Of a stretch of 64,000 nucleotides of DNA, positions 1,083 to 50,904 are shown piece after piece (position 1 is the stretch's first letter; each line of letters opens with the position of its first letter). Source of the stretch: Nitrospirota bacterium (GTDB lineage Bacteria; Nitrospirota; Nitrospiria; SBBL01; JAADHI01); contig JAJDBT010000055.1 in assembly GCA_029261215.1 (NCBI GenBank), forward strand, positions 1 to 64,000, given 5' to 3'. A model generated the notes under the pieces. That model was given only the letters and a program-made list of their open reading frames with translations, searched no databases and had not been told where the DNA came from. Made by a program: the position numbers and the translations under genes.

Positions 1083-1996
1083 TGCAATTTTATCCGGGGG
1101 TCGGCAAAAGGATATAAAAGATCCACGATGAGGTTGGCCAGCACAATCAGGAAGGCATAGACAAGCGTTACCCCCATGATCAAGGGGTAATCCCGATTGC
1201 TCACTGCCGTGATAAAAAACTTCCCCATGCCCGGCACAGAAAAGATAAATTCAATCACAAAAGAGCCCGTCACCAGAGTCGCCGTAAGCGGGCCCAGGAT
1301 GGTGATCACCGGTGTGATGGCATTTTTTAAAACATGATGAAACAAGATCCGCATTTCAGAAAAACCCTTCGCCCGCGCAGTCCGGACATAATCATGATGC
1401 ATTTCGTCCAGAATGCTGGCTCGGACCAGCCGCGCAATATAGGCGGCTGGTCCGAGACCTAAAGCGCAGGCCGGAAGGATGACGCTTCGGGCATCTTCCC
1501 ACAGGGCGGGCGGCAGAACCTTGAGGTAATGAGAAAAAACAAGAATTAAAAGGGCGCCCAAAACAAAGTTAGGGATGGAGATGCCCGCCGTCGCAAAAAA
1601 CAGGCTCAAGCGATCCCAGAAAGTGCGTGCAAAAGCGCCAGAGATAATGCCCATAAACGATCCCCCCAAAAGACTGAGCATCAGCGCGGCGAAACCCAGC
1701 TGCATTGAGACCGGCAGGCTGTCCGAAATCACATCGTTCACGGTTCGGCCCACATATTTATACGACGGCCCCAAATCCCCCTGAATCAGCCTCTTTAAAT
1801 AAAGGATGTACTGTATTTGAAGGGGCTGATCTAAATGATACTTCGCCTCGATATTGGCTTTGATTTCGGGCGGCAGTTTTTTCTCCCGATCAAAGGGCCC
1901 GCCCGGCACAAGATGCATCATTAAAAAGGTCAGGGTTGCAACCAGCCATAACACCGGAATGGCCCACAAAATGCGCCTCAGACTAAAACGCAGCAT
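1079..1996 (-). CDS. oppB: Oligopeptide/dipeptide ABC transporter permease, OppB/DppB type
   Basis: This is the first permease subunit of the importer (305 aa). It starts with one membrane segment and a periplasmic stretch (GGPFDREK and QYILYLKRL regions typical of OppB). The transport domain carries an EAA loop (YVRTARAKGFSE, near residue 205) and a C-terminal LIVDLLYPFADPRIKL-type end, both characteristic of DppB/OppB. Its ATG overlaps the oppA stop by one base (TGATG), and its stop overlaps oppC by four, so the three genes form one operon. It would pair with OppC to form the membrane channel. Confidence 0.94.
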   Translation of the reverse strand: MLRFSLRRILWAIPVLWLVATLTFLMMHLVPGGPFDREKKLPPEIKANIEAKYHLDQPLQIQYILYLKRLIQGDLGPSYKYVGRTVNDVISDSLPVSMQLGFAALMLSLLGGSFMGIISGAFARTFWDRLSLFFATAGISIPNFVLGALLILVFSHYLKVLPPALWEDARSVILPACALGLGPAAYIARLVRASILDEMHHDYVRTARAKGFSEMRILFHHVLKNAITPVITILGPLTATLVTGSFVIEFIFSVPGMGKFFITAVSNRDYPLIMGVTLVYAFLIVLANLIVDLLYPFADPRIKLQ

Positions 1997-3597
1997 CAGA
2001 ACTTCTCTTTCTGGGTCGATTTTAAACGCACTTTTTTCAGGTGTAACAAATCCATCGCGTTCACCTGCAAGCCTTCAAATACAGGACGAATCAGCAGATT
2101 TTGCGATGCAAAAAACAAGGGAATGATCGGGGTGTCTGATTCTGTCAAAATCCGTTGCGCCGCATCGTAAATTGCCACGCGTTTCGAGACATCCGGCTCA
2201 CTCGCACCTTCGGAAATCAAACGGTCATATTCCACATTTCCCCATTGAGTGTAGTTATTCCCGCTCGTACTCGTAAACAGGTTCATAAAATTATCAGGGT
2301 CTGGATAGTCCGCGCCCCATCCGAGCCGGAACACCTGTGGCGTATTTTCCTTTAATTGCCTGAGGTAAACCTTCCACTCCATATTATCGATTAAGACGGA
2401 AACCCCCAGATTTTTCTTCCATTGCGCCTGAATGTTCTCGGCAATCAGGGTATTGGTCGGGTCTGTGTTAAAGGAAAGCGTAATCGGCGGCACTTCCGAA
2501 CCCTGCGTATAACCCGCCTCTGACATGAGCCGCCGCGCTTTTTCGGGATCAAACGAAAGACCAATCTTTGGGTTATGGGCAAACATCCCGGCGGGTATCC
2601 ATGATGTCGCAGGCAGCTCGCCGCCTTTTAGAATGCGGGGAATTTCAGTCCGGTCAATCGCCATTGAAAAAGCCTGCCGCATCCGCGCATCATTAAATGG
2701 CGCTTTTTCCACATTAAAACCATAATAATAGCCCCTTAAAAAGGGGGCACGCAGGTAATCGGGATGATGCTGATACTGCAAAATGGCAATGGGCGGAAGC
2801 GACACCCGGTCGAGATCTCCTGTTTCATACAGCGTCAATGCGGTGGTTTCTTCCGAAACCACATAAAATACCACTCGATCCAAAGACGGTCGTCCAGCGT
2901 AATACGTCTCATTCGCAATCAGAGTGAGTCGGTATTCATGACGCCACTCGTCCAGCAAAAAAGGGCCGTTGGTCACCAGATGAGCAGGATCGGTCCAGTG
3001 GTCGCCGTAACGCTCAATCAAGTCTTTTCGTTGGGGGTAGGTCGCGGTAAAAGTCGTAATCGAAGGAAAATAAACCGCCGGTTTTTTCAGGGATACCCGC
3101 AAGGTGAAATCATCCAGCGCTTCCACGCCGACCCGCTTCGAATCTTGGATCACTCCGGCGTTATATTCGGCGGCGTTTTCAATATCAAACAAAAAGTAGG
3201 CGTATTCCGAAGCCGTTTTGGGGTTCAACAGCCGCTTCCAGGCATATTCAAAATCATGCGCGGTCACGGGTTTCCCATCACTCCAAAACACATCTTTTCT
3301 CAAGTGAAAGAGATATGTCCTCCCCTTATCTGATACCTCCCATCGATCGGCAACGGCCGGGATCGGCTGCAAAGCCGCGTCGTATTCAGCCAGCCCCTCC
3401 ATCAAATTTTCAATGACGCGGATGGAGACATTGTCGGTGGCCAATGACCAGTCGAGCGTAGGCGGCTCGGCAATGAGATTCATACGAAATGTGGCGGAAA
3501 ATGCCTGTGCTTTTTCCTTATTTTTTTGCTGAACAACAAAAAAAAACAGGCTTAAACAAAACAAACCGACAAGGCACCATTTCATCTTTTGATTCAT
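1996..3597 (-). CDS. oppA: Extracytoplasmic peptide-binding protein, OppA family
   Basis: This is the solute-binding subunit (533 aa, SBP family 5). A hydrophobic N-terminal signal segment spans residues 6-22. The Cys residues there do not form a clear lipobox, so it is either a signal anchor or cleaved by a non-canonical site. The mature part has the hallmark segments of the family: EPPTLDWS near the start, the DFEYAWKRLLNP region, and the C-terminal GWGADYPDPDNF segment seen in peptide binders. It is first in the operon. No Shine-Dalgarno precedes the ATG, and a promoter -10 hexamer ends 8 nt upstream, so the mRNA may be leaderless. Confidence 0.93.
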   Translation of the reverse strand: MNQKMKWCLVGLFCLSLFFFVVQQKNKEKAQAFSATFRMNLIAEPPTLDWSLATDNVSIRVIENLMEGLAEYDAALQPIPAVADRWEVSDKGRTYLFHLRKDVFWSDGKPVTAHDFEYAWKRLLNPKTASEYAYFLFDIENAAEYNAGVIQDSKRVGVEALDDFTLRVSLKKPAVYFPSITTFTATYPQRKDLIERYGDHWTDPAHLVTNGPFLLDEWRHEYRLTLIANETYYAGRPSLDRVVFYVVSEETTALTLYETGDLDRVSLPPIAILQYQHHPDYLRAPFLRGYYYGFNVEKAPFNDARMRQAFSMAIDRTEIPRILKGGELPATSWIPAGMFAHNPKIGLSFDPEKARRLMSEAGYTQGSEVPPITLSFNTDPTNTLIAENIQAQWKKNLGVSVLIDNMEWKVYLRQLKENTPQVFRLGWGADYPDPDNFMNLFTSTSGNNYTQWGNVEYDRLISEGASEPDVSKRVAIYDAAQRILTESDTPIIPLFFASQNLLIRPVFEGLQVNAMDLLHLKKVRLKSTQKEKF

Positions 3598-3605
3598 ATT
3601 TCGGA

Positions 3606-3634
3606 AGAATAGTTTTTTTTAGAGAAAACGTCAA
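3606..3634 (-). promoter_or_regulatory. Sigma-70 promoter of oppABC, placed for a leaderless start
   Basis: On the minus strand TTGACG is followed by a 17-nt spacer and TATTCT. Only 8 nt separate the -10 from the oppA ATG at 3597, so transcription should begin at or one base before the start codon. The spacer is A-rich. Confidence 0.6.
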
Positions 3635-3765
3635 AATAAGACGAAGGGGACTAAAAACACATCTTGCGAATATACCCATCATTCTAAATAGATTACAAAA
3701 ACAATCCTGCTTTCATTTTTACCTGATAAAAATGAATACAAGCCCAAAAAGAGCCCTTCTTCGTC

Positions 3766-6095: not shown

Positions 6096-7148
6096 TCAAT
6101 AAAATAATGGCAGTTGCAGCGGATGCTGAGATTTAAAATATTTCGTCGAAAGAAACGGCATCTCCTCCGAAATTCCGGCTTTTCTGCACGAGAGGGAAAA
6201 GAGCGCCCGAACTTGCTTTGCATACGCTCCAAAACCTTTCATGCGCGAGAAAAACCCGGCATCATTTAATTTGCCGCCCCGCATTGCCCGAACATGATTC
6301 AGGACTTTTGATTTTCGGTCGGGAAAGTGTCGCTCCAGCCAGTCTTCGAATAAAGATGACACCGCATAGGGAAGGCGCAGGGGAACCATTCCAGCAAAAA
6401 CCGCACCTGCCGCAGATGCAGCATTTAAAATATGGGGAATCTCCTGGTCATTCAAACCCGGAATCACCGGAGCCACCATAACCCCTGTCGGAATGCCTGA
6501 CGCATTCAGAAATTGAAGCGCTTCGAGCCTTTTCTCCGGTCTTGAGGCCCTGGGCTCTAGTTTCTGGTGTAACTGAGGGTCAAGAGTTGTCATCGAGATA
6601 AAAACCGCCGCTGAATGAAAGCGGGCCAACTGCGACAAGAGATCGATATCCCGCATCACGCCGCTATTTTTAGTCACAATAGCCACAGGGTTACGAAAAT
6701 CGAGCAGCACCTCAAGACAGCGCCGAGTCAGCCCCAATCGCTTTTCAACGGGCTGATATGGATCGGTCACTCCGCTCATGGCCAAAACCTTTGGCTGCCA
6801 TTTGGCATCAGACAAGGTTTGCCGCAACAGCGCAGGCGCATTTTCTTTGACGATGATTTTTGTCTCAAAATCGAGTCCTGCCGAATACCCCAGGTATTCA
6901 TGAGTCGGACGTGCATAACAATAGATACAGCCCTGCTCGCAGCCCCGGTAGACATTGATACTGGCTTCAAATCCAATATCCGGGCTGTCATTGTACGCCA
7001 CAATGGTTCGAGCCCTTTCCTGAATAAATTCAGTCCCCGGATAAGAACCTTCCCAATCGGGAGAATGCCTCATACGATGTTGCGCTTCAAAGCGGTTCGG
7101 CGGATTCTGAGAAGCACCCCGTCCTTTTATTGATTTGTAATCAGGCAT
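6096..7148 (-). CDS. Radical SAM protein, PA0069 / spore-photoproduct-lyase-like family
   Basis: This is a 350-aa radical SAM enzyme. The [4Fe-4S] cluster motif is Cys70-x3-Cys74-x2-Cys77 (CEQGCIYC), directly followed by YARPTHEYLG, which typifies the PA0069 (Rv2578c-like) branch related to spore photoproduct lyase. The N-terminus GRGASQNPPNRFE is also a signature of that branch. The reaction of the branch is not established; a DNA or RNA repair role has been proposed for it. The ATG overlaps the end of malQ by 8 bases, so it is translationally coupled to the gene upstream. Confidence 0.88.
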   Translation of the reverse strand: MPDYKSIKGRGASQNPPNRFEAQHRMRHSPDWEGSYPGTEFIQERARTIVAYNDSPDIGFEASINVYRGCEQGCIYCYARPTHEYLGYSAGLDFETKIIVKENAPALLRQTLSDAKWQPKVLAMSGVTDPYQPVEKRLGLTRRCLEVLLDFRNPVAIVTKNSGVMRDIDLLSQLARFHSAAVFISMTTLDPQLHQKLEPRASRPEKRLEALQFLNASGIPTGVMVAPVIPGLNDQEIPHILNAASAAGAVFAGMVPLRLPYAVSSLFEDWLERHFPDRKSKVLNHVRAMRGGKLNDAGFFSRMKGFGAYAKQVRALFSLSCRKAGISEEMPFLSTKYFKSQHPLQLPLFY

Positions 7149-8757
7149 GGCTCAAGAGATCTCTCGAAAAGCGCTCGACTGCGGATTTGAAATAACTCAG
7201 TTGTTTTCCATAGGGAGGGGACTCATTCAGTTCGGAAAGCGGCAGCGGCATCCGGTAACACCAATTTTCGGGACCGACCGTGCCGGGCGCATTGATCTGG
7301 GCGCTCTCCGACAAAATGTCATGAATTGGAAAAATGACAAGGCCCGCACCCGAAGCCATCATCAGATCAAAAATCGCCTCATGAAGCCGGGGTGAATATC
7401 GGGATGGAGTCGTCAGCCCTTCAGTGTGGTTCAGCAAATCCAGAAAAGACGCTTGCTCTTCTTCGGAAAGGGCATTCCACCATTTTGACAGTGATGAAGT
7501 ATCATGCGTGCCCGTCGTCGCCATAGAAAGAAACGGATAATCTTTCGGAGCATGATAATGTGTCCCCTCTTTTTCCCACCGCAACACCTTATGCCCTGCA
7601 ATATGAAGATCGCTGAGCACCTGCCGCACAAAATCAGGTACGCAGCCCAAATCTTCCGCAATCGGGATACATTCACCCAGCTCCGATAAAATCACCCTAA
7701 GCAGAAACCTTCCCCGGCCAAACTGCTCCGTCTCATGCGCTGGCTCAAAATAAGGGGAAGCCCCTTTTGGCATCACCCAAATCCGAAAAAAACCCACCAC
7801 ATGATCCAGACGAATCAGGTCATAACATTGGCTCGCATGCCGCATACGAAGACGCCACCAATTAAAATGGTCCGTTTCCATCGCCTTCCATGAAAAAACC
7901 GGCAACCCCCAATCCTGGCCGTCCGCATTAAAATTGTCCGGCGGCGCCCCAACAGAAACGACTTGATCAAACAAGTGCTGATTACGCCAGACATCCGCGC
8001 TGTCTCGACTGACCAGGAAGGGCATATCCCCCATAATCATACTTTTTTGTGTCTTTGCATGCGCGCGGACAGACTGCCACTGCGACCACAAAATCCACTG
8101 AACGTATTGAATAAAAAGAATCGCATCGGCTTCCTCTTTCTCAAAAAGCGCCAAGGCTTCCGGGTCTCGGTGTTTGTAGGCGTCGGGCCAATCGTGCCAA
8201 TGCCGCCAACCCTGTTTTTTCTTCATTTGCCAAAACAGGGCATAATCGTAAAGCCACGCGGATTGCGCCTTTATAAAATCCTGGAATTGTGTTGCACCTT
8301 CTCCTTTTTGATTCCAAACATCCGTTTTATATCGCTCAAAAGCAAGCTGAAGTACTGCGTATTTCAAAGCCCGAATGGGCTTAACATCTACTGTTTTTTT
8401 GCTACGCCAATGACTCAAATTACTTGAAACGCTTTCCGTTTCGAGATAGTCCGAAACCTCACGATCCACACAAAACCCTTCCGTGTCTGAGATGGAAAGA
8501 TACAGTGGATCAATCGCAAAACTGCTCAAGGCCTGATAAGGGCTGGTTTCGGCCGGCGCGGTTTCATAAATCGGCAAAATCTGAACCAAGCGGATGCCAT
8601 GCCTTGTCATCCAATCGATAAAGGGGATCAAATCCAGAATTTCGCCAACCCCGGCGTTTTGCGCTGTTCGAATAGAAAAAAGCGGCACCATCACACCCAC
8701 AGTTTTTTGCTTTAAAACCGCAGGGCGGGTTTCGGGATTATTGTCATAATCGGTCAT
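7141..8757 (-). CDS. malQ: 4-alpha-glucanotransferase (amylomaltase)
   Basis: This GH77 enzyme transfers alpha-1,4-glucan segments between oligosaccharides or glycogen. From the ATG at 8757 it is 538 aa. Family hallmarks include SPYQALSSFAIDPLYLS near the N-terminus, the catalytic-core segments IRLDHVVGFFRIWVMP and AEDLGCVPDFVR, and TGTHDTSS. In-frame GTG (8811) and ATG (8799) lie upstream, but neither has a Shine-Dalgarno, and family alignment begins only after 8757. A TAGAGT hexamer ends 7 nt before the 8757 start, so a leaderless start is possible, but no good -35 is seen. It is divergent from the sulfite-oxidase-like gene. Confidence 0.9.
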   Translation of the reverse strand: MTDYDNNPETRPAVLKQKTVGVMVPLFSIRTAQNAGVGEILDLIPFIDWMTRHGIRLVQILPIYETAPAETSPYQALSSFAIDPLYLSISDTEGFCVDREVSDYLETESVSSNLSHWRSKKTVDVKPIRALKYAVLQLAFERYKTDVWNQKGEGATQFQDFIKAQSAWLYDYALFWQMKKKQGWRHWHDWPDAYKHRDPEALALFEKEEADAILFIQYVQWILWSQWQSVRAHAKTQKSMIMGDMPFLVSRDSADVWRNQHLFDQVVSVGAPPDNFNADGQDWGLPVFSWKAMETDHFNWWRLRMRHASQCYDLIRLDHVVGFFRIWVMPKGASPYFEPAHETEQFGRGRFLLRVILSELGECIPIAEDLGCVPDFVRQVLSDLHIAGHKVLRWEKEGTHYHAPKDYPFLSMATTGTHDTSSLSKWWNALSEEEQASFLDLLNHTEGLTTPSRYSPRLHEAIFDLMMASGAGLVIFPIHDILSESAQINAPGTVGPENWCYRMPLPLSELNESPPYGKQLSYFKSAVERFSRDLLSHA

Positions 8758-8837
8758 GCAGACAACTCTACCATTTTTTTGAGTCTGTGAATACAGCATC
8801 CCAGCAGCCACTTTTTCAGCCCTAGATCACAGATCTA

Positions 8838-8866
8838 TTGAAAACAAAACAACCACTCTATATAAT
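8838..8866 (+). promoter_or_regulatory. Near-consensus sigma-70 promoter, leaderless arrangement
   Basis: TTGAAA, a 17-nt spacer and a perfect TATAAT end 7 nt before the ATG at 8874, so the predicted transcription start coincides with the start codon. A TTG at 8838 that could extend the reading frame is the promoter's own -35 element. Confidence 0.75.
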
Positions 8867-8873
8867 CCCAGAC

Positions 8874-9896
8874 ATGCCAAAAATCACACCCGGTTTTTAC
8901 GCTGAACAACTCAATAGAAGAAAATTTATACAGATTTCAAGCGCTGGCATTGCAACCACACTTTTTGCAAAACGCGGGGAAGCCGCCTCGTTTTTTATGA
9001 AACGGTTTTTGGCCCTTCCGGCAAAAAAAACCCCTTTTATCACACCCACAGAAGACTTTTACATTGTTCAATATTCCGGACCACAAACTGTGGATGTCAA
9101 TCGCTGGTCGCTTCACATTACGGGAAAAGTCAAAAACCCCCTTAGACTGACCTATAACGATATTTTAAAACGACCCGCGATTGAAAAAATGGTCACATTA
9201 ACCTGTATTGATAACGAAGTGGCAGGAGACCTGATCAGCAATGCCGTCTGGAAAGGCATCGAACTTAAAGACTTGCTCGAAGAGGCCGGACCAGATAAAT
9301 CAGTCGTCGATGTCGCCATGTTTGGGGCAGATGACTATTCGGACAGCATTACCATTGAGCGGGCAATACAATACGATGTTTTTTTAGCCTATGAAATGAA
9401 TGGCAAACCGCTGAACAAAGATCATGGCTTTCCGCTTCGGGCCGTTGTTCCGGGCCTGTTCGGGATTAAAAATGTCAAGTGGCTCACAAAACTCGAACTC
9501 ACAAATTATGACTACAAAGGGTATTGGCAGAAAAAAAGCTGGACCGATATCGGGACAATCAACGTCAGCTCCCGAATCGATGACCCCGGCCCTTATAATA
9601 CCCTCAAAAAAGGGCATGTCTTGCGCGGCATTGCCTTTTCGGGATTTAACGGCATGGGCATGGTTGAAATCTCTTTTGATGACGCAAAAACCTGGGAACG
9701 GGTCAAACTCGAACCCACACCCTCGCCCTATTCGTGGGTTCACTGGCATTACGAATGGAAAGATCCCAAACCCGGCGACTACCGGATTTACGTCCGCGCT
9801 ACCGATAGAATCGGCAGAACACAGACCTCCTTCCTCGCCAGTGCCTTTCCAGATGGCACGACCGGCTTGCATTCCGTCGTCGCTTTTGTCGAATAA
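8874..9896 (+). CDS. Tat-exported sulfite-oxidase-type molybdoenzyme
   Basis: This is a periplasmic molybdopterin oxidoreductase of the sulfite oxidase fold (340 aa from the ATG at 8874). A twin-arginine signal (NRRKFIQISSAG, Arg15-Arg16) precedes the Moco domain. Its conserved LTC motif holds the Mo-ligand Cys111 (VTLTCIDNEVAG). Downstream segments GFPLRAVVPGLFGIKNVKWL and the C-terminal dimerisation domain (VEISFDDAKTWERV, YRIYVRATD) match SorA/SUOX-like enzymes. A bound haem motif (CxxCH) is absent, so the electron acceptor is separate. The substrate may be sulfite, or another S- or N-oxide. It stands alone, divergent from malQ. Confidence 0.87.
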   Translation: MPKITPGFYAEQLNRRKFIQISSAGIATTLFAKRGEAASFFMKRFLALPAKKTPFITPTEDFYIVQYSGPQTVDVNRWSLHITGKVKNPLRLTYNDILKRPAIEKMVTLTCIDNEVAGDLISNAVWKGIELKDLLEEAGPDKSVVDVAMFGADDYSDSITIERAIQYDVFLAYEMNGKPLNKDHGFPLRAVVPGLFGIKNVKWLTKLELTNYDYKGYWQKKSWTDIGTINVSSRIDDPGPYNTLKKGHVLRGIAFSGFNGMGMVEISFDDAKTWERVKLEPTPSPYSWVHWHYEWKDPKPGDYRIYVRATDRIGRTQTSFLASAFPDGTTGLHSVVAFVE

Positions 9897-11029: not shown

Positions 11030-11800
11030 TTATTCTGGAGAAGCGGATTTCGCGCAGCGAAATCCGTTATCGGGCCCCAGACGATCCGGACGATTGGAGT
11101 TCCGGAAGGTCACCTGTCCAAACATTTCGTCCGCAAAATGCCGACTGGGATTAAACGCGCCGCCCCGAACCACTTTTTGAAAAATGCCATAATCAGGCGA
11201 TTGATACGTGCTTCCCGGATAAGCGCGATACCAGCTATCCGTCCACTCCGAAACATTGCCCGCCATGTCAAAAACCCCATAAGGACTTCTATCCTCCGGA
11301 AAACTGCCGCCGGGCAAGGGTTTTGCGCCCACATTTGATTTTTTTGGATCAAAGACATTGCCCCAGGGGTAGGCGCGGCCATCGATGCCTCTTGCCGCTT
11401 TTTCCCACTCCGCTTCCGTTGGGAGACGTTTTCCAGAAAAACGGCAATAACTGTCGGCATCCGTCCAGCTGACATGCGTCACGGGCACATCAGACAAACG
11501 ATCCGGCAGAATGTGTTTTTCATCAAATTTGAGATAATCGCCATACGTCACTTCGTAACGATCGATATAATAGGCGGGCAAACGCACCTCATGTTTTGGA
11601 CGGGCATCTTTTTGCCCCCAGGGACTGTCGGGCGGAAGTTCGTCCAGACCCATCCAGAACGGCCCCGCCGGAATGCGGATCATCCCTTGTGGAGGCGGGG
11701 TTTCGGCCAAAGACACAACAACTCCCAGGCTCAAACAGAACAGAGCGCCTATAAAGGTGAGTTGGATTCGGAGGTGACAACAAACGGCATTAAAAAACAT
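11030..11800 (-). CDS. Exported formylglycine-generating-enzyme-like (SUMF1/PvdO fold) protein
   Basis: This 256-aa protein has a signal peptide (hydrophobic residues 13-31) and one FGE-sulfatase domain. Hallmarks are IPAGPFWMG, YYIDRYEVTYGDYLKF, PVTHVSWTDADSYCRFSGKRLPTEAEWEKAARG, YPWGN, DMAGNVSEW and the terminal GFRCAK. The paired catalytic Cys of true sulfatase-activating FGE are not evident, and no sulfatase gene is near, so it probably belongs to the broad periplasmic PvdO/SUMF1-fold group of unknown substrate. The ATG has no Shine-Dalgarno and sits 6 nt after a -10 box, predicting a leaderless mRNA. It is divergent from the VOC gene. Confidence 0.85.
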   Translation of the reverse strand: MFFNAVCCHLRIQLTFIGALFCLSLGVVVSLAETPPPQGMIRIPAGPFWMGLDELPPDSPWGQKDARPKHEVRLPAYYIDRYEVTYGDYLKFDEKHILPDRLSDVPVTHVSWTDADSYCRFSGKRLPTEAEWEKAARGIDGRAYPWGNVFDPKKSNVGAKPLPGGSFPEDRSPYGVFDMAGNVSEWTDSWYRAYPGSTYQSPDYGIFQKVVRGGAFNPSRHFADEMFGQVTFRNSNRPDRLGPDNGFRCAKSASPE

Positions 11801-11806
11801 GGGCCA

Positions 11807-11835
11807 ATTGTAAGATCGGTATCAAGACATGTCAA
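11807..11835 (-). promoter_or_regulatory. Sigma-70 promoter with leaderless arrangement (FGE-like gene)
   Basis: On the minus strand a perfect TTGACA, a 17-nt spacer and TACAAT are followed by only 6 nt before the ATG at 11800. Confidence 0.7.
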
Positions 11836-11855
11836 CAAAACAGAAATTTACGTGC

Positions 11856-43961: not shown

Positions 43962-43970
43962 TGGTATAAT
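43962..43970 (+). promoter_or_regulatory. Extended -10 promoter, leaderless arrangement (M1-like/BamA gene)
   Basis: TGGTATAAT (exact TGnTATAAT) ends 6 nt before the ATG at 43977. The -35 region is poor. A leaderless mRNA is predicted, although a TAGG just before the ATG could act as a very short Shine-Dalgarno. Confidence 0.6.
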
Positions 43971-43976
43971 AGGTTA

Positions 43977-46556
43977 ATGAGACTTGTTACCAGCTTGCTT
44001 TTCATTTTTTTAATTGCCCCGCCTCTGGTCTGCGCATCCCAAAATTACGAGATTGATGCGACCTACCAACAGGAAGAACACCAGATTGTCGGCCAAGAAA
44101 AAATCACCTTCTCTAACCAAAGTACGAAACCTGTTTCAGAGCTTTATATTTTTTTATATCCGAACCTTTATCGCCGTAAGCACCCAGATCTGGATACGCA
44201 GTTCTATCGCAAGGCCTATCCCATTAATTTTAATTCTGCCGGGATTGAGATTCATTCACTTAAAGATGCCTCTGGCGAAACGCTGCCATTTTTTCCAAGT
44301 CCCTATCAAAACAGTATTATCATTAAAATCAATCTCTCCAAACCCGTAGAACCGCTTGATGACTTTGATCTTTTCATAAAATTTACGACAAAAATCCCTC
44401 AGAAATGGGGACCTTTTGGATACTATGACAATCTGATTGCCCTGCAGGGAGGCTGGTACCCCTATCTGGCCAACTTCATTGATGGAGAGTGGACCTTCCA
44501 CGATCCCCCTCAGGAAAGTCGGTATCGGATTCGATTTAATATTGAAAAAAACTTTGAAGTCATCGGATCCACGCCTCTCACCTCAAAAACAACAGAAGGA
44601 GATCTGCACAGCTACCTCTTCGAAGGGGAAAATCTCTCTTTTTTTTCTCTCTCTATCGGGGATGACTTTGTTGAATATAAAACAAGTATTGGGAAAGTGG
44701 ACATCACTTACCATGTCCTTTCAAGGGATCGGGCCTACGCAGAGCAAGTGGTTCAACTCACAGAAAATGCCCTCACCTTCTTTACCGAAGAAAGCGGAGC
44801 GCCCCCGCCAATGTTCCTTCAAATGACAAGCGCAGGCCTGTACCAGGACTTAACAACACCCGGCGACAATTTGCTCTATTTGAATACACACCTCTTCAAA
44901 GTTTTTCCAACATTAAAACGTTTTCATGAAGCCAGCCTTGCCTACGGACTCTACCGGATCATATGGAGGAAAAAACGACCTGAGGAGACCTGGTGGGTCA
45001 TTGAGTCACTTGCCCGGATTGACGCCGAAGCGTTTATGAAAAACCGTCACGGAAAAACATTCAACTTAAGTGAATGGTTAAAACCGATTGCCTTTATTCC
45101 TTTGATTGACCAAATTCTTTATTCCAATGACCTCCCGATGCGGCAGGTCTATTTTAAGGAATCGCTCAACCCCGTTGTAAGTGAAGATATTCGATTTTTT
45201 AACAATCCCCCTTCCGAAAGTCCAAGTATTTTCACGAAGCTGAGAAATTTGATCGGGGATGAGTCAATGGATCAAACGCTTTCAGCCTACCTCACTCAAA
45301 AAGATGAGGCGGCTCTTTCATTTAGAAAAATTCTGAATAAAACCACAGGAGAAGACCTCGACTGGCTGATCGACCGATGGCTGACCGTCCGAACAAAACT
45401 GGATTTTGAGTTGCTCGACATCCAGCAGGAAGAGATCAACGGCACATATCACACATCTATTGACGTTCTAAAACATGGGGAGGGCATTGAGCCGCTGCAG
45501 GTCACCGTTCGGGAGAAAAACGGATCGGTCACTCCTCTGGTCTGGGATGGCGTAGGCGATGCCCATCGTTTTGTTCTTACAACACAAACGGCGGTTCATG
45601 TCGTAGATCTTGACCCAAACAAGCTCTCAAATGATCCAAATCGACTGAATAACCGCAGTCCTCCGAAATGGAAGTTTTTGCTGGATCAATTCAATCTGAG
45701 TTACGATTTTCAAACAAAATTTCTCAGCTACAATACAGGTCTGCTTTTTCAACGGGTCTATGATACGCGAAACTGGGTTCGCCTTCAGTTTTCCCATGCG
45801 GATGCGGGTGATTCTCAACATCTCAGCTATACGCATTCCATTAAAAGAAACCACATCATCACAACAGGCCTGACCCATACAAAAACAAAAGCAGACCTTC
45901 AATTGGCACAGAAAGCCGAAGAATCCCAATTTGTTACAATTGGATACGACTTTGTCTTCCCGGATATCCCTCTTTTACCGGAATCGGTTCAACGCCTGAC
46001 CACGACATTTCCAACGTTCGATGTGGGTCTCACTTTTAACCAGGAACTGTCTTCAGGATCAACAGAACACGCGGCGCTTCTTAGGCTGAATTTAAGACGG
46101 GTTTTTTCTTTTTCCAACTACCATGAAATCGGAGGGCGTATTTTCATTGGACAATCCATAGGCCGACTTTTTGAGGACAACCGGTTTTTCCTGGGGGGTT
46201 CAAATGGCATGCGCGGATATACGCCGCTTGCTTTTGAAGGAGAGAACATGTCTCTTTTTTCCGTGGAATACCGTTTCCCGCTTTTTTATGAAACAGATAT
46301 TAATTTTCTAGGGCTCGTTCATACCCATACTTGGCAGGCTGTCCTGTTTTCGGATGCAGGCATGGTCACCGATTCTCACAATGTCTTTCGTTTTGATCAA
46401 TATAAATCAGATATCGGGTTCGGCCTCCGTTTTTTCGTAGATTTATTTGGAGTATATCCCTCTATTCTCCGGGCCGATATTGCAAAACCCATTGATGGCC
46501 CAAGAACGGACGAAGACAAAATCCACTACTACCTGAATGTCGGGCATTCATTCTAA
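43977..46556 (+). CDS. Pseudo-peptidase M1-like domain fused to a BamA/Omp85-type barrel
   Basis: This is an 859-aa exported protein. After a signal peptide (1-20) comes a domain like the N-terminal saddle of M1 aminopeptidases (YEIDATYQQEEHQIVGQEKITFSNQS; residues 22-240), then a catalytic-like helical region. The expected zinc motif HExxH is degenerate (HEASL, 317-321, second His lost), so it is probably inactive. A PDZ-like middle is followed by a C-terminal surface-antigen barrel (about 570-859): GFF/FLGGSNGMRGY (FFLGGSNGMRGYTP), EYRFPLFYETDIN, and the last strand ending HSF. A role in binding or secreting proteins at the outer membrane is inferred. Confidence 0.78.
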   Translation: MRLVTSLLFIFLIAPPLVCASQNYEIDATYQQEEHQIVGQEKITFSNQSTKPVSELYIFLYPNLYRRKHPDLDTQFYRKAYPINFNSAGIEIHSLKDASGETLPFFPSPYQNSIIIKINLSKPVEPLDDFDLFIKFTTKIPQKWGPFGYYDNLIALQGGWYPYLANFIDGEWTFHDPPQESRYRIRFNIEKNFEVIGSTPLTSKTTEGDLHSYLFEGENLSFFSLSIGDDFVEYKTSIGKVDITYHVLSRDRAYAEQVVQLTENALTFFTEESGAPPPMFLQMTSAGLYQDLTTPGDNLLYLNTHLFKVFPTLKRFHEASLAYGLYRIIWRKKRPEETWWVIESLARIDAEAFMKNRHGKTFNLSEWLKPIAFIPLIDQILYSNDLPMRQVYFKESLNPVVSEDIRFFNNPPSESPSIFTKLRNLIGDESMDQTLSAYLTQKDEAALSFRKILNKTTGEDLDWLIDRWLTVRTKLDFELLDIQQEEINGTYHTSIDVLKHGEGIEPLQVTVREKNGSVTPLVWDGVGDAHRFVLTTQTAVHVVDLDPNKLSNDPNRLNNRSPPKWKFLLDQFNLSYDFQTKFLSYNTGLLFQRVYDTRNWVRLQFSHADAGDSQHLSYTHSIKRNHIITTGLTHTKTKADLQLAQKAEESQFVTIGYDFVFPDIPLLPESVQRLTTTFPTFDVGLTFNQELSSGSTEHAALLRLNLRRVFSFSNYHEIGGRIFIGQSIGRLFEDNRFFLGGSNGMRGYTPLAFEGENMSLFSVEYRFPLFYETDINFLGLVHTHTWQAVLFSDAGMVTDSHNVFRFDQYKSDIGFGLRFFVDLFGVYPSILRADIAKPIDGPRTDEDKIHYYLNVGHSF

Positions 46557-50559: not shown

Positions 50560-50832
50560 TTACTCTAAAACGACAGCAATCGTCCCATCATCCTGATCCA
50601 CAACCGGCATCGATTTATTACAATGCGGGCATTTCACGTAGACAAGGTTGTCAAAGAGACCGATACTGTAGTGATTTACCAGGAGGTCAAACTCTTTTTT
50701 ACAGGCCGGACATGCGGAAAGGTAGCGCTTTAGGAAATGCCTAACTTCTGTTTGTATCCCGTAAATTTGACTTTGTAACCGAAGTACCTCTGCTTCAAGG
50801 TGGTCGATCCGCTTTTCTAGAGCCTCAGACAT
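50560..50832 (-). CDS. Coiled-coil plus zinc-ribbon protein
   Basis: This is a 90-aa protein (from the ATG at 50832). An N-terminal helix with heptad pattern (LEKRIDHLEAEVLRLQSQI) leads to a zinc ribbon with Cys-x2-Cys pairs CPAC and CPHC, then a basic-to-acidic tail. It is likely a small regulatory or adaptor protein. An ATG at 50841 exists, but it overlaps the -10 hexamer of the promoter, and 50832 is 7 nt after that hexamer. No Shine-Dalgarno is present, so a leaderless start is likely. Confidence 0.72.
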   Translation of the reverse strand: MSEALEKRIDHLEAEVLRLQSQIYGIQTEVRHFLKRYLSACPACKKEFDLLVNHYSIGLFDNLVYVKCPHCNKSMPVVDQDDGTIAVVLE

Positions 50833-50839
50833 GGCGCGC

Positions 50840-50868
50840 ATGATAATCTAATCGAAAGGTCGTGTCAA
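50840..50868 (-). promoter_or_regulatory. Sigma-70 promoter with leaderless arrangement (zinc-ribbon gene)
   Basis: On the minus strand a perfect TTGACA, a 17-nt spacer and TATCAT are followed by exactly 7 nt before the ATG at 50832. Confidence 0.75.
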
Positions 50869-50904
50869 TTCCCAAAATCATGTGATCATTTAGAGGAATT
50901 TCCC

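Follow-up and report, generated by a model that had tools for sequence, protein, structure and literature searches.

Start-adjacent promoters point to leaderless transcripts from a minority of genes in a Nitrospirota order

Results

The window, the first 64 kb of one contig in a 3.37-Mb Nitrospirota draft genome, carries on its plus strand a gene for a sulfite-oxidase-type molybdoenzyme (PF00174, Pfam; 8874..9896) that contains a twin-arginine-like motif, RRKF. Among named sequences, the close relatives of this enzyme (72-90% identity) come from MAGs labelled Nitrospirota, Nitrospira sp., Nitrospiria and Candidatus Manganitrophaceae. Upstream of the gene lies a -35 box, TTGAAA (8838-8843, plus strand), of which TTGNAA is retained across the order, followed after a 17-nt spacer by the -10 box TATAAT (8861-8866, plus strand). 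The -10 box is separated from the ATG at 8874-8876, the predicted leaderless start, by 7 nt (CCCAGAC) that hold no Shine-Dalgarno (SD) sequence, and the longest open reading frame of the gene would begin within its own -35 box. The gene is divergent from a malQ-type 4-alpha-glucanotransferase gene (Pfam; 7141..8757, minus strand), which is a weaker candidate for the same arrangement, with TAGAGT at 7 nt from ATG 8757. The TANNNT motif at this distance (hereafter the gap, from the -10 box to the start codon) is retained in three congeners, so that the two genes would form a divergent pair of close promoters, and the malQ-type start is most likely ATG 8757 rather than GTG 8811 (open reading frame 7141-8811, minus strand).

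Four other genes in the window have the same layout, and none has an SD sequence. A solute-binding protein of an ABC transporter (SBP_bac_5, Pfam; 1996..3597, minus strand), which heads a transporter cluster, is preceded by TTGACG-N17-TATTCT (3598..3640, minus strand) with 8 nt to ATG 3597, and an FGE-sulfatase-type protein (Pfam; 11030..11800, minus strand) by TTGACA-N17-TACAAT (11801..11840, minus strand) with 6 nt to ATG 11800. The gene for an 859-residue Omp85-domain protein (Pfam; 43977..46556, plus strand) has an extended -10 element, TGGTATAAT (43962..43970, plus strand), with a poor -35 and 6 nt to ATG 43977. Finally, TTGACA-N17-TATCAT (50833..50870, minus strand) lies 7 nt from ATG 50832 of a conserved 90-residue protein with CxxC pairs and no confident Pfam match (50560..50832, minus strand). 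All four are predicted to be leaderless. The 90-residue protein was overlooked by the gene callers used here, yet is present in 18 of 19 related genomes.

The five sites described in the sequence-only reading, with -10 boxes ending 6-8 nt from an ATG and no SD sequence, are thus all present. The genes are mutually unrelated by Pfam family or product type; their promoters score 9.5, 9.3, 9.2, 7.4 and 5.5 at gaps of 4-9 nt, and all remaining called starts in the window score 4.5 or less over the same gaps. Considering the window alone, three first-in-unit genes (first genes, below) score at least 7 at gap 6-8, whereas the other distances predict 0.19 (P = 1e-3).

We compared these promoters with those of orthologues. 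In six relatives, the -10 box of the molybdoenzyme gene (ATATAAT), its ATG and most of the -35 box do not vary and the gap is always 7 nt, but the filler sequence itself differs. A strong promoter whose -10 box lies 6-8 nt from an in-frame ATG is present in 16 of the 18 genomes compared across the order; four outgroups at class level did not show the layout. This ATG lies 0 to 33 nt off the position expected from homology, and the N-terminus of the protein varies. That the ATG shifts relative to the homologous protein while the gap is kept argues that the start codon is tied to the promoter and not to the protein. The layout is also found in 13 of 13 orthologues of the FGE-type gene (gap 5-7) and in 10 of 11 orthologues of the solute-binding protein gene (gap 7-8), and a TANNAT-type -10 box at gap 6-7 is present in 9 of 12 orthologues of the Omp85-domain gene. 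Of 17 orthologues of the gene at 50832, 13 have a strong promoter, at gap 7 in the genus and at 8-10 in some other families, where a gap of 9-10 nt means predicted leaders of 1-4 nt. For each genome, the comparison displayed whichever in-frame start had the best promoter, and this choice tilts the counts towards the pattern; high-scoring promoter sites are nevertheless rare, with 593 of score at least 6 over the two strands of 700 kb. In several orthologues, an in-frame stop codon 0-9 nt ahead of the ATG precludes an upstream start; for the molybdoenzyme gene, such stops lie 3-9 nt ahead in the orthologues designated L021 and L022, which supports the start at ATG 8874.

The promoters could be genuine and the start codons wrong, the true starts lying downstream so that the mRNAs have short, normal leaders with weak SD sequences. 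Gene starts are indeed only predicted here, by a caller that hits the exact position of 29 of 35 E. coli starts. However, the ATG at 6-8 nt is itself the conserved feature, and in the molybdoenzyme the next Met sits past the twin-arginine-like motif; we regard downstream starts as extremely unlikely.

To ask how far the layout extends beyond the window, we used a sample of approximately 700 kb of the genome together with relatives. Genes were called with an order-4 frame-specific model, a single-codon caller having been dropped for its poor starts. The promoter matrices are approximations based on E. coli promoters, and the Poisson P values assume independent sites. Because few sites passed a strict promoter threshold on its own, lower thresholds with position controls were applied. 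With the window excluded, 466 first genes drawn from the genome and its close relatives, their starts assigned from coding potential only, include 15 promoters scoring at least 6 at gap 6-8, whereas 4.1 are expected (mean over 21 other distances, of which the maximum is 8; P = 3e-5). The same test applied to E. coli as a control found a strong promoter at gap 6-8 in 0 of 195 first genes. A scan free of gene calls for ATG-initiated reading frames at gap 6-8 (score at least 7) gave 12 sites against 3.0 expected in the 700-kb sample, which here includes the window, 9 against 2.5 in 495 kb from relatives in the genus and family, and 1 against 1.0, hence no excess, in E. coli. In the test on first genes, only a single site falls at gaps of 12-17 nt, and promoters with leaders return from about gap 18. 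Leaderless-rich D. deserti shows a peak at the same position. Operon-internal genes showed no excess of start-adjacent -10 boxes, and in the Nitrospira-like genome G039 the excess was weak or not significant.

These counts bear on whether the recurrence could be a matter of chance, that is, -10-like hexamers that happen to lie near an ATG and were selected by a reader seeking them. Such sites are somewhat denser in the window than in the remainder of the sampled genome, as selection would produce. Nevertheless, the excess is found outside the window and is missing from E. coli, and the conservation in orthologues already contradicts chance, the probability of which we consider negligible. The claim of the sequence-only reading that the recurrence is unlikely to be accidental is therefore upheld by the order-wide conservation and by the excess beyond the window.

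The genes at gap 6-8 are also depleted in SD sequences: an SD 4-mer was detected in 1 of 18, whereas 172 of the remaining 483 first genes have one (P = 0.005, Fisher test). The count of close promoters, proposed genome-wide from the sequence alone as a check, gave in the sampled sequence a peak above the position controls together with SD depletion. SD motifs as a whole are found upstream of 35-46% of genes, compared with 6-12% in control stretches. A 16S gene was not detected in the draft genome; a genome of the same genus has a complete 16S gene with an intact anti-SD at its 3' end (...GGATCACCTCCTTTCT), so an SD system is at the disposal of the genus.

Another reading of the close -10 boxes is that true transcripts begin farther upstream and that the AT-rich, -10-like boxes are elements of SD-less leaders, such as bS1-binding sites or unstructured stretches. 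An SD 4-mer is missing from 311 of the other 483 first genes, so initiation without an SD sequence must be common in this lineage, and an AT-rich bias at -20 to -10 may stem from bS1 in some phyla (PMC5397173). An AT-rich leader, however, needs neither a spaced -35 box nor a fixed gap of 6-8 nt, whereas the whole unit of -35, 17-nt spacer and -10 is conserved, TTGACA included. We judge this explanation very unlikely for the promoters described here. As a separate observation, 311 of 501 first genes lack both an SD 4-mer and a strong start-adjacent -10 box, a figure that is inflated by miscalled starts; a third mode, SD-less but leadered, may be common in this genome.

The strong-promoter excess amounts to at least approximately 2% of first genes. 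When the -10 box alone is considered, the excess at gap 5-8 corresponds to 2.3% of this genome's first genes and to 5.7% of those in close relatives, or about 3-4% overall. The same -10 method applied to a plasmid sample of D. deserti yields 18.7% of first genes. Because leaderless mRNAs are known to be numerous in D. deserti (1174, PMC5243855; a share of up to 47%, PMC9320726), the method evidently undercounts, and the true leaderless share in the present lineage is perhaps 5-15% of first genes, as extrapolated from this undercount. The large share (20-40%) of genes with a start-adjacent -10 box that is seen in leaderless-dominated lineages of the Deinococcus-Thermus and Actinobacteria type was not observed. 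Leaderless initiation is a minority mode here and not the main one.

Leaderless-type promoters were also observed at two genes elsewhere. A DUF6502 gene (PF20112; L055:4375-5208, minus strand) and its orthologues (L233-L243) have such a promoter with the -10 box inside a palindrome, TTGGGAATATAATCCCAA, which is kept in orthologues and paralogues and looks like a putative operator for repression, possibly autorepression, of the gene. A gene for a MerR-type regulator with B12-binding domains, CarH/LitR-like (L061:550-1476, plus strand; also L215-L217), has a strong leaderless-type promoter, around the -35 box of which TTTGACAAnCATTAGAC is conserved.

Discussion

Transcription from sigma-70 promoters starts approximately 7 nt past the -10 box, with a preference for a purine. 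An ordinary sigma-70-type RNA polymerase would read a -35/-10 pair whose -10 box ends 6-8 nt from the start codon, and +1 would fall on the A of the ATG or within about 3 nt of it. The resulting mRNA would be too short at its 5' side for an SD sequence. In other bacteria, leaderless mRNAs are translated mainly by 70S ribosomes that attach directly at the 5'-terminal AUG, a step modulated by initiation factors (PMC9031893), and the mRNAs considered here would mostly take the same route.

We favor this interpretation because the gap is conserved while the filler and the N-terminus vary, because the close promoters exceed the position controls, and because SD sequences are nearly absent from the genes that have them. 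It is highly probable, on the basis of sequence comparison, that start-adjacent promoters give rise to leaderless transcripts (leaders of 0-3 nt) at a minority of first genes, that this is conserved in the order, and that it operates beside a normal SD system. A start-adjacent -10 box alone is no proof of a 5' end, and upstream promoters could add leadered transcripts. Of the two parts of the earlier proposal, the leaderless architecture is supported by the order-wide conservation, the excess, the lack of SD sequences and the negative result with E. coli, whereas its description as a frequent mode is not, given an excess of about 2-4% of first genes and SD sequences at 35-46% of genes. One could further envisage that leaderless initiation is a gene-specific trait, selected at the exported Mo enzyme, FGE-type and solute-binding protein genes for a regulatory reason, such as preferential 70S translation under starvation or stress, and not a neutral leftover; we consider such selection unlikely.

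Gene finders that expect an SD sequence or choose the longest open reading frame misplace starts of this kind, which is of consequence for annotation.

The accompanying statement that leaderless mRNAs are rarely reported in Gram-negative lineages was too strong, for they are documented or predicted in several. Caulobacter crescentus has 375 leaderless mRNAs, or 9.6% of coding sequences (PMC4117421), Leptospira has about 440 mRNAs with leaders shorter than 10 nt (PMC5243855), and 7% are leaderless in Methylorubrum (PMC9320726). The predicted averages for genomes having leaderless genes are 15.8% in Deltaproteobacteria and 26.5% in Aquificae (PMC3160421). Caulobacter crescentus and Leptospira resemble the present case as Gram-negative-type bacteria in which a substantial minority of mRNAs has its 5' end at or near the start codon; their 5' ends were mapped by experiment, whereas ours are predicted. 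A full-text search of the open-access literature found no report of leaderless genes for Nitrospirota or Nitrospirae. The kind itself is already known, and it is its apparent extension to Nitrospirota (relatives of Ca. Manganitrophaceae), for which the evidence is order-wide conservation, that looks new.

The closest parallels are two classes of genes defined by their -10 sequences. The TA-led leaderless genes (Zheng et al. 2011, PMC3160421) share with the genes studied here TANNNT approximately 10 bp upstream of the start, the lack of an SD sequence, a minority share and the limitation to single or first-in-operon genes. They differ in that Nitrospirota is not named in the text searched there, and that conservation is followed here gene by gene across the order. 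The -10-adjacent open reading frames of Deinococcus-Thermus (PMC12340547) likewise have a -10 box 6-8 nt before the ATG, strengthening by a -35 box and a leaderless mRNA, the last of these predicted in our case. They make up about 30% of open reading frames, compared with the approximately 2-4% measurable here, where the best cases have a strong TTGACA -35 box.
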